Shown here piece after piece: positions 8,271 through 9,939 of a DNA stretch of 26,378 nucleotides. Position numbers and translations under genes: made by a program. Origin of the DNA: a virus. The notes below the pieces were generated by a model. The model was not told where the DNA came from and did not search any database. It saw only the letters and a program-made list of their open reading frames with translations. Position 1 is the first letter of the stretch. Every line of letters starts with the position of its first letter. The DNA lies in IMG/VR virus record IMGVR_UViG_3300035070_002725, positions 1 to 26,378 of that record. One strand, given 5' to 3'.

Positions 8271-8717
8271 ATGACAACAATAGCTTACCATCATAAAGAT
8301 GGATGCATAGCCTACGAATCAAGGTTAACTAAAGGCGGAACCATTTGTACTGACTCATTTGAAAAGATGAGGGTGAAGGGTGGTGAAAAATTTATACTTT
8401 GTGGAGTTGAGTCTGATTGCCAATCTTTCATTAATCACTACCCTGAATTTAAGCCCGAACACTCGTATAGGTGCAGTGGTGTAATAGTTAGGGATAAAAA
8501 GGCGTACAGCTTTTGCTTCAATCAAGAAGGCGAGTACGAAGAGTTCGAGTTAACATTTAATGAAGCGTGGGGAAGCGGTCAAGACCATGCGCTTACAGCT
8601 ATGGACTGTGGATTAATGGCTAAAGAAGCTGTAGCTATGGCAATTAAAAGAGATTCGGCGAGTGGTGGTGAGGTGCATAATATTTTTGTTAGAGGCGATT
8701 CTGAGTTGCCACTCTAA
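8271..8717 (+). CDS. proteasome beta-subunit-like (Ntn-hydrolase fold) protein
   Basis: From ATG 8271 (GGAG upstream; a GTG one codon earlier is possible) the 148-residue product begins MTTIAYHHKDGCIAYESRLT, then TICTDSFEKMRVKGGEKFIL. This is the start of the 20S proteasome/HslV-like family: removal of Met would leave Thr2 as N-terminal nucleophile, Lys32 stands in the place of the catalytic lysine, and FILCGVESDC matches the following strand and turn. The usual AADSR is here AYESR, with Glu16 at the Asp17 position. WGSGQDHALTAMDCG (about 101-115) fits the helix after the central strands (family pattern GSG...A...l). Similar small genes occur in other phages, with unknown substrate. Activity is not certain because of the Asp-to-Glu change. 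Confidence 0.78.
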   Translation: MTTIAYHHKDGCIAYESRLTKGGTICTDSFEKMRVKGGEKFILCGVESDCQSFINHYPEFKPEHSYRCSGVIVRDKKAYSFCFNQEGEYEEFELTFNEAWGSGQDHALTAMDCGLMAKEAVAMAIKRDSASGGEVHNIFVRGDSELPL

Positions 8718-8721
8718 ACCA

Positions 8722-8758
8722 AACCCCATTTGCTAACGTAAGCGGATGGGGTTATAAT
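8722..8758 (+). promoter_or_regulatory. hairpin plus sigma-70 promoter for the 8765 RNA region
   Basis: TTGCTA (8730-8735), exactly 17 bases and TATAAT (8753-8758) form a near-consensus promoter with a predicted start near 8765. Both boxes are part of a hairpin: AACCCCAT (8722-8729) pairs with ATGGGGTT (8746-8753), and the pairing continues through two G-T pairs and GCT/AGC around loop AACGTA. There is no real T-tract after the stem, so it is a poor terminator on its own. It may attenuate transcripts arriving from the proteasome-like gene while the promoter starts a new one. Confidence 0.65.
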
Positions 8759-8764
8759 TAAGCG

Positions 8765-9145
8765 TCCTTGGCGGGATAGTTACACATTTTGGAGGCGGTT
8801 CTCTTTTCTAGCTCACCTAGAGCGAAAGATTCCCGCCAAGACTCTCGAAGAGCCGCCTACCAAAGTGTGTAACTAAAAAGAAAAAGCAAAAATTCAATTC
8901 GGCGTTTTCTAAAAGTTTTCCCATTCTTAAACCGTCAAGACCACAACTTTTTATCTATCTAAGCTTAAGCGGCGATAAATGTTCACGTTATTGGTGGTAG
9001 TAAGACAGTTTTCACCCGATGGTCACGCATCACACAAAAGGGTTGTCTAATACGGTCTGGGGAGTCCTAAACTCTCGTGGCAATACTTGATAGATAAATA
9101 CTATAACTTTAAATCTAGAGAATGGGTCTATATACCACCCACGCT
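8765..9145 (+). ncRNA. putative large structured RNA (or long structured 5' leader)
   Basis: There is no gene in 8718-9171, yet the region is full of compensating arms. Domain 1: CTTGGCGGGA (8767-8776) pairs with TCCCGCCAAG (8831-8840). 8778-8802 pairs with 8849-8874 as 9 + 6 + 9 bp, including AGTTACACA/TGTGTAACT, interrupted by a small internal loop. The two helices interleave (A-B-A'-B'), giving a pseudoknot or two exclusive folds. A small hairpin lies at 8803-8828. Domain 2 is closed by 8950-8963/9086-9098 (TTTATCTATC/GATAGATAAA plus AAG/CTT) and holds hairpins 8973-8978/8988-8993, 9003-9017/9040-9048 (containing GATG/CATC) and 9062-9065/9071-9074. A last hairpin is TGGGT/ACCCA (9123-9141). 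The predicted start of transcription falls two bases before the first helix. There is no terminator before the metallophosphoesterase gene, so it may be that gene's leader. The family is unknown to me. Confidence 0.6.
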
Positions 9146-9171
9146 TAGATTGTACTATTGAGAAAATAAAC

Positions 9172-9669
9172 ATGACTAGACTAATGATTACAAGTGACCT
9201 TCACCTTGGCCACAAAAACATTCACAAATTCAGGGGTGAATTTTCATGCGCAGAAGACCATCACGAATTTATGTTTGAACAATTAGCAATGAACATCCAG
9301 AAGAGGGACTCACTATTTCTACTTGGTGATATTGCATTTGATAAATACTGGCTTAATAAGTTGAAAGAAATTAAGTGCGTAAAGAAAACTCTAATCCTTG
9401 GTAATCACGACACGGAAAACGGGATCAGGTTTAGTGACTTTGTTGGAGTGTATGATGATGTTCATAGTCTTTTCGCAAAGCGCAATATCTGGTTTAGCCA
9501 CTGTCCAATCCACACTAGTCAGTTCAGAGGTAAGAAGTTAAACATACATGGACACCTTCACGATAAAAAAGTAATCGGTGATATGCACGAAGACTATCGA
9601 TACCTAAACGCTTGTGTTGAGCATACAGATTACAAGCCAATTAGCTTTGCGGACTTGATTGATGGCTAA
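9172..9669 (+). CDS. calcineurin-like metallophosphoesterase
   Basis: All metal-binding motifs of the family are present in this 165-residue protein: DLHLGH (residues 9-14; Asp9, His11), LLGDIAFD (Asp53), LGNHD (76-80), WFSHCP (His110) and NIHGHLH (124-130). The short length and the GNHD...FSHCPIH...HGHLH spacing match the small phage and bacterial phosphoesterase group, which acts on phosphomonoesters or phosphodiesters with two metal ions. The natural substrate in phages is not known. It is the first gene after the structured 8765-9145 region and lies in a unit ending at the terminator 10045. The ribosome binding site is modest (GAGAAA), which leaves room for control by the structured leader. 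Confidence 0.92.
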   Translation: MTRLMITSDLHLGHKNIHKFRGEFSCAEDHHEFMFEQLAMNIQKRDSLFLLGDIAFDKYWLNKLKEIKCVKKTLILGNHDTENGIRFSDFVGVYDDVHSLFAKRNIWFSHCPIHTSQFRGKKLNIHGHLHDKKVIGDMHEDYRYLNACVEHTDYKPISFADLIDG

Positions 9670-9862
9670 CAACAAAACCCTACTAACCGCTATAGAAAGA
9701 AAGCGAAACCAGATAGCAAAGCAACAACGCAAACTAAAGAATGCCAAGTCAGAAGTTGATAGAGACTTGGCGCGAGATGAAATTAAAAGGCTACAAACTG
9801 CGATGCTTAACATGCAGAATCAGATTAAGATGAATCATGCTATGGGAGATAACAAATGCTAA
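9662..9862 (+). CDS. hypothetical coiled-coil protein
   Basis: The start ATG 9662 overlaps the end of the phosphoesterase gene by eight bases. The 66-residue product is almost entirely charged and helical (TAIERKRNQIAKQQRKLKNA, KSEVDRDLARDEIKRLQTAM) and probably forms a coiled coil. No family is recognised. Its stop codon is overlapped by the next small frame. Confidence 0.6.
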   Translation: MANNKTLLTAIERKRNQIAKQQRKLKNAKSEVDRDLARDEIKRLQTAMLNMQNQIKMNHAMGDNKC

Positions 9863-9939
9863 CCCTACTACAAATCATAAACCCTCGTGACCATGATTGG
9901 GATTGGTCTAGTTACGTAGCGTATGGAAGAATTATTTAG
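9856..9939 (+). CDS. 27-residue micro-ORF
   Basis: The frame MLTLLQIINPRDHDWDWSSY followed by VAYGRII overlaps the upstream stop (ATGCTAA). It ends just before a strong AGGAGA ribosome binding site of the next micro-ORF. Support is coupling and position only; no function can be inferred. Confidence 0.38.
   Translation: MLTLLQIINPRDHDWDWSSYVAYGRII

Follow-up and report, generated by a model that had tools for sequence, protein, structure and literature searches.

Specificity segments that diversify within a structured RNA are familiar from the C4 antisense RNAs and the RNAI-type immunity or incompatibility RNAs of phages and plasmids. Large structured phage RNAs are, to our knowledge, few, and their functions are unknown. 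GOLLD, a large ornate RNA whose function is likewise unknown, has a variable 5' part and a conserved 3' part and is associated with tRNA genes that are sometimes located in its linker, and ROOL is a large pseudoknotted phage RNA found near tRNA islands (PMC12286853). The Vibrio phage ICP1 produces an abundant orf-less noncoding transcript of about 800 nt (PMC7567579).

The whole stretch of DNA analysed here (the window) comprises 26,378 nucleotides of the IMG/VR virus record IMGVR_UViG_3300035070_002725, and its gene-free plus-strand part 8760-9171 probably encodes a large folded RNA, one version of a previously uncatalogued family of large modular structured RNAs that many marine bacterial viruses carry. 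The related RNAs are mosaics of a 5' clamp (module 1), a middle segment in which tRNAs can occur, and a 3' domain (module 2). RNA structure at this locus is well supported, and 8760-9171 as a whole folds better than shuffled sequence (z -3.7), as the original prediction of a structured RNA required. We regard a new tRNA-associated large structured phage RNA, which would have its own promoter and be co-transcribed with any downstream gene, as the best explanation of the locus, and hold this reading with moderate confidence. A coding reading was discarded, since one-base indels in 1.071 and other relatives interrupt the open frame annotated in phage K68.

Comparison with the described systems places the family beside them rather than within them. 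A cmscan search of 4227 Rfam 15 families gave no match to the window region at E<=5, in agreement with the earlier failure to assign it to a known family, and the relatives yielded tRNA plus sub-threshold matches only. The GOLLD model RF02032 matched none of eight records at E<=10 and was also absent from the cmscan results; the ROOL model RF03087 matched none of eight records in a search run without a positive control, and cmscan was silent here as well. By these models the RNA is a member of neither family. It resembles GOLLD as a large ornate RNA with a variable 5' part, a conserved 3' part and tRNAs in or next to it in relatives (1.110, L064, L067, L074, 1.085 and Seahorse, and not the window), but is shorter, precedes exchangeable genes and has a hypervariable 5' clamp. 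With ROOL it shares large size, pseudoknotting and a link to tRNAs, but no model match. The ICP1 transcript is, by its description, likewise a large noncoding Vibrio phage RNA, but ICP1 has no tRNAs. The C4 and RNAI-type RNAs differ in that the Rfam scans gave no C4 match and no antisense target has been identified for the present family. No published description of the family was found in the literature searched, subscription papers and preprints being outside its reach.

The element is preceded by a putative promoter that overlaps an inverted repeat:

8722-8753, plus strand: 13-bp dyad with arms 8722-8734 and 8741-8753, overlapping the promoter
8730-8758, plus strand: sigma-70-type promoter TTGCTA-17-TATAAT with 10 of 12 consensus matches; relatives have TTTGCA...TATAAT before different 5' domains

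The promoter proposed in the original prediction is retained for its conservation in front of different 5' domains; as a scan result it stands at chance level, shuffled sequences yielding as many sites. Transcription would start just after it. The dyad covers the -35 box and the spacer, its arms diverge in relatives yet remain complementary, and it may represent an operator or the end of an upstream transcript.

The 5' module contains the following pairing segments:

8764-8777, plus strand: 5' hairpin GUCC-UUGGCG-GGAU of 4 bp, with the core of arm A as its loop; relatives have GUUC-UUGACG-GGAC or GCGG-N8-YCGC
8767-8776, plus strand: arm A, pairing with 8831-8840 (10 of 10)
8778-8802, plus strand: arm B, the 5' strand of the long helix, with its partner at 8849-8874
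8831-8840, plus strand: arm A', located in the apical loop of helix B
8849-8874, plus strand: arm B', with 25 of 25 pairs intact in every sequence
8932-8939, plus strand: A'' (CCGTCAAG), an alternative nested partner of A, with 8 of 8 pairs in all nine phages

The two long interleaved pairs in the order A-B-A'-B', which formed the core of the original prediction, were confirmed, A being complete and B consisting of 25 pairs with a single bulged base (8859). The fold energy of 8762-8880 is -48.6 kcal/mol compared with -28.9 +/- 3.6 for shuffled sequences (z -5.5). When the segment between the B arms was shuffled, chance produced a partner for A of equal length in 5 of 5000 mononucleotide shuffles, and one of equal strength in 0.25% of shuffles that kept the dinucleotides. 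Both helices are conserved across 83 Vibrio phage records, and the only arm substitution that breaks pairing occurs in isolate 14E30.2; the original prediction passed the test of compensatory change. In nine aligned sequences (8 distinct), 98.8% of the cells of helix A are paired, with one double change, and helix B is 100% paired, with two double changes and four one-sided changes to or from G-U; sliding the partners reduces the pairing of A/B from 99.6% to 35-50%. These nine sequences are 95% identical and many isolates are near-identical, so the pairing evidence from close relatives alone is modest. The one-sided changes pass through G-U on the plus strand and would be A-C on the other strand, which makes the plus-strand RNA the likely functional form.

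Two features of the module, the 5' hairpin 8764-8777 and A'', had not been listed before. The A-A'' helix, with two one-sided changes among the nine phages, both via G-U, nests around helix B, whereas A-A' crosses it. Strand A is able to pair with A' or with A'' in all close relatives; the two pairings are mutually exclusive and both are conserved. The 5' module would therefore not need the complete 10 + 25 bp H-type pseudoknot: of the pseudoknot or two-fold switch suggested earlier, the interleaving stands and a second partner has been added, and judging from the relatives the A-A' contact may be loop-loop.

The relatives extend this picture. BLAST with the window region found matches in Vibrio phages only, 17 records covering at least 80% of it, and module 1 (8717-8900) was found in 83 Vibrio records, many of them near-identical isolates. 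Other phages, such as jenny 12G5 and 1.135, carry the 3' half alone, which indicates a modular region with a border near 8942. By BLAST with the relatives' own leaders and by IMG/VR sequence patterns, we reached more distant Vibrio phages (NF, 1.122, 1.275, 1.054, 1.110, 1.085, 1.189, 2.095.A, 1.177, 1.003, vB_VnaS-L3 and Seahorse), Pseudoalteromonas phages (HS1, HS5, HS2, BS5 and Pq0) and uncultured contigs (L063-L065, L067, L070-L074, L076, L077, L089, L090, L092 and L093). Their gene-free leaders span roughly 440-740 nt and usually have a TATAAT box in front. Stricter IMG/VR patterns returned nothing beyond contig L016, the pattern GCGSSGATAAATNTTCACG gave only chance matches in viral and bacterial genomes, and plasmids gave no match to the element. 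Matches in 3 of 395 host genomes of the sampled order lay in coding-like sequence and were taken as chance.

Most relatives share a short hairpin (GCGG-loop-YCGC, the counterpart of GUCC-UUGGCG-GGAU in the window), after which comes a longer one of about 18-30 pairs. Part of the apical loop of the longer hairpin can pair with the loop of the short one: the downstream segment contains the 6-mer complement of its own loop in 20 of 21 relatives, and the complements of foreign loops in 23 of 370 cases. In a second type, the pairing segments match perfectly in 8 of 8 own combinations and in 0 of 52 foreign ones; the segments were picked by inspection, so the former figure arises partly by construction and the latter is the informative part. 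This loop-loop arrangement eases the strain that the original prediction had raised for two complete helices. The module would fold as a short hairpin and a 25-bp hairpin, with the loop of the former pairing with the apical loop of the latter into a clamp or pseudoknot in which the crossing helices presumably coexist, and strand A would alternatively pair with A'' further 3'. In the 1.122 type, several segments run as a, b and c on one side and, in unchanged order, as a', b' and c' on the other, so that coexistence of all pairings cannot be assumed, and sequential refolding during transcription is possible. The distant contig L092 has the order a-c-a'-c' with a 13-bp a-a' helix, matched by 0 of 5000 shuffles, and also a U-run. 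Its region 535-980 combines this perfect crossing helix and the same RNA architecture with an otherwise different gene content, which suggests that the family reaches well beyond vibriophages.

A U-run lies directly after c' in most relatives other than the window, as expected if the element were a conditional terminator, in which the long helix and the U-run stop transcription and release a 5' RNA of roughly 130 nt while the earlier a-a' pairing delays the stop. The order of synthesis would suit such a device, a and a' being transcribed before c'. We consider it improbable, as the window and its close relatives carry an A-run at this position and no terminator was detected there; the GC-rich stem with a U-run that marks an intrinsic terminator or attenuator was not found in the window. 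The loop of the long helix is too long for the simple terminator scan, so that the scan of L013 weighs neither for nor against this reading.

In several relatives the middle of the element contains tRNA genes or presumed tRNA remnants. The tRNA genes lie inside the element in 1.110 (Met), L064 (Arg), L067 (Val), L074 (Rfam tRNA, 40 bits), 1.085 (Trp, Arg) and Seahorse (Trp, Arg, Gly); no tRNA gene was found in the window's own copy. In L067 the tRNA begins immediately after the U-run, and at its position NF, 1.122, 1.275 and 1.054 have a GUAUCUG/CAGAUAC stem that is probably a decayed tRNA. The window copy has neither the tRNA nor the U-run seen in most relatives and could be a reduced version.

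The 3' module, a conserved domain, lies directly upstream of the next gene:

8944-9100, plus strand: 3' domain (module 2), closing stem 8950-8959 with 9089-9098
9004-9048, plus strand: internal helix of 9004-9010 with 9041-9048, partial covariation
9060-9076, plus strand: hairpin of 9060-9065 with 9071-9076, changes on both sides in 5 of 6 pairs
9123-9141, plus strand: hairpin TGGG...CCCA before the start codon, conserved in close relatives

The proposal that this second domain is structured draws its support from covariation, nine pairs of the window-type module showing double changes; its energy is weak evidence taken alone (z -1.6, with 13 of 200 shuffles as good). The module occurs without a window-type module 1 in jenny 12G5, 1.135, NF, 1.122 and 1.275. 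Helix P3 of the HS5 and K30 types, with arms chosen by inspection, pairs with its own partner in 9 of 9 cases and with foreign ones in 0 of 108, nine of the twelve module 2 sequences being counted. Shared motifs suggest that all module 2 types are homologous.

The modules have been exchanged between phages: 1.054 combines the promoter and middle segment of jenny with the 5' domain type of NF, and K30 joins the window's 5' domain to a 3' domain of the type found in 1.189.C and BS5. Such recombination of modules and downstream genes, together with the HNH genes adjoining the RNA in K30 and 2.095.A, would also follow if the inverted repeats acted at the DNA level as a recombination or homing site and the RNA fold were incidental. 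This explanation is very unlikely, since substitutions pass through G-U pairs and keep the helices in the RNA sense, a promoter precedes the module, and tRNA genes lie inside the element in relatives.

The genes behind the RNA vary in kind. In the window they are:

9172-9669, plus strand: downstream variable gene, calcineurin-like phosphoesterase (Metallophos_2 E=1.6e-4, a match that falls short of the Pfam cut-off; annotated phosphoesterases matched by BLAST)
9665-9862, plus strand: coiled-coil-type small gene, behind the variable gene in many relatives, no Pfam match

The position of the variable gene is taken by a C5 methyltransferase in 1.137, 1.122 and 1.275, a D12 methyltransferase in 1.119 and 1.127, another methylase in 1.071, 1.144, jenny, 1.135 and HS5, and an HNH nuclease in K30 and 2.095.A; hypothetical genes also follow the window-type RNA. 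In BS5, L073 and Pq0 the RNA is followed by a head gene or by a small gene before the head genes. The small gene and a 71-base noncoding stretch after it (9868-9938) recur in relatives, so that the flanks of the cassette are conserved on both sides; the noncoding stretch is found in phage 1.054.O at 82%.

The RNA had been proposed as a dedicated structured RNA or a long leader of the metallophosphoesterase gene, and a tie to that gene is too narrow a reading. The gene does follow it here, and a cis-regulatory 5' leader, acting for example by A switching between A' and A'' or by the 3' domain gating ribosome access, would suit the position of the start codon directly adjacent to the RNA in every case, the end of window-type module 2 about 70 nt before the start codon with no terminator between, and the two conserved, mutually exclusive partners of A. 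We nevertheless consider it a doubtful, if serious, alternative: the same RNA precedes unrelated genes elsewhere, including those of BS5, L073 and Pq0, and no consistent class of regulated gene, as expected for a leader or riboswitch, was found downstream. As the RNA is tied to no single gene, we prefer an autonomous RNA, although the data leave the choice unsettled. With no terminator in between, the gene is probably co-transcribed with the RNA. The RNA persists where the gene has been exchanged or is missing, which makes the RNA, and not the gene, the most likely target of selection. The action of this autonomous RNA would most likely resemble that of GOLLD and ROOL, the phage RNAs with a similar link to tRNAs.

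Several other arrangements were noted around these genes. On the minus strand of contig L016 (5665-4180), a methylase frame of only about two dozen codons comes next after the RNA, and then a nuclease-like ORF and another methylase; this looks as if the gene behind the RNA had recently been replaced. In HS5 and HS1 (L055/L056, 2941-3584) the annotation divides the methyltransferase that follows the RNA into two successive ORFs, perhaps a broken gene. Elsewhere in the window, a minus-strand ORF (1186-1866) with an HNH-like motif recognised by eye (HIDHIKPVS) and no Pfam match is opposed to the flanking plus-strand head-region genes.

The 5' clamp is hypervariable. In two pairs of phages, sequences that are 98% identical just 3' of the clamp have nearly unrelated clamp sequences with similar folds. 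Phages jenny 12G5 and 1.135 show 96.5% and 98.0% identity on the flanks of module 1 and 99.6% in the next genes, but 56.6% within module 1 (shuffles 44-53%); between 1.122 and 1.275, identity is 56.2% in module 1 and 97.7% in the part behind it. The window and 2.095.A share 76% in the upstream gene, and their 5' modules are 48.8% identical, no better than shuffled. The sequence of the 5' module is thus swapped wholesale and its fold is retained, a hypervariability that is unexpected for a simple leader and may reflect diversifying selection imposed by something with which the module interacts. Speculatively, this partner could be a host defence or a rival phage.

We tentatively suggest, with less than even confidence, that the family represents a novel class among the large RNAs of phages, associated with tRNAs, in which the pseudoknotted 5' domain is a hypervariable specificity module, whose alleles are exchanged with the fold kept, making it an RNA analogue of immunity or counter-defence determinants. 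The family occurs in many cultured vibriophages, with V. crassostreae, V. lentus, V. natriegens and V. parahaemolyticus among their hosts, and in several Pseudoalteromonas phages, and so is amenable to RNA-seq and deletion. Phages jenny 12G5 and 1.135, a natural pair differing mainly in the 5' module at this locus, provide a ready comparison of alleles for what the module recognises.
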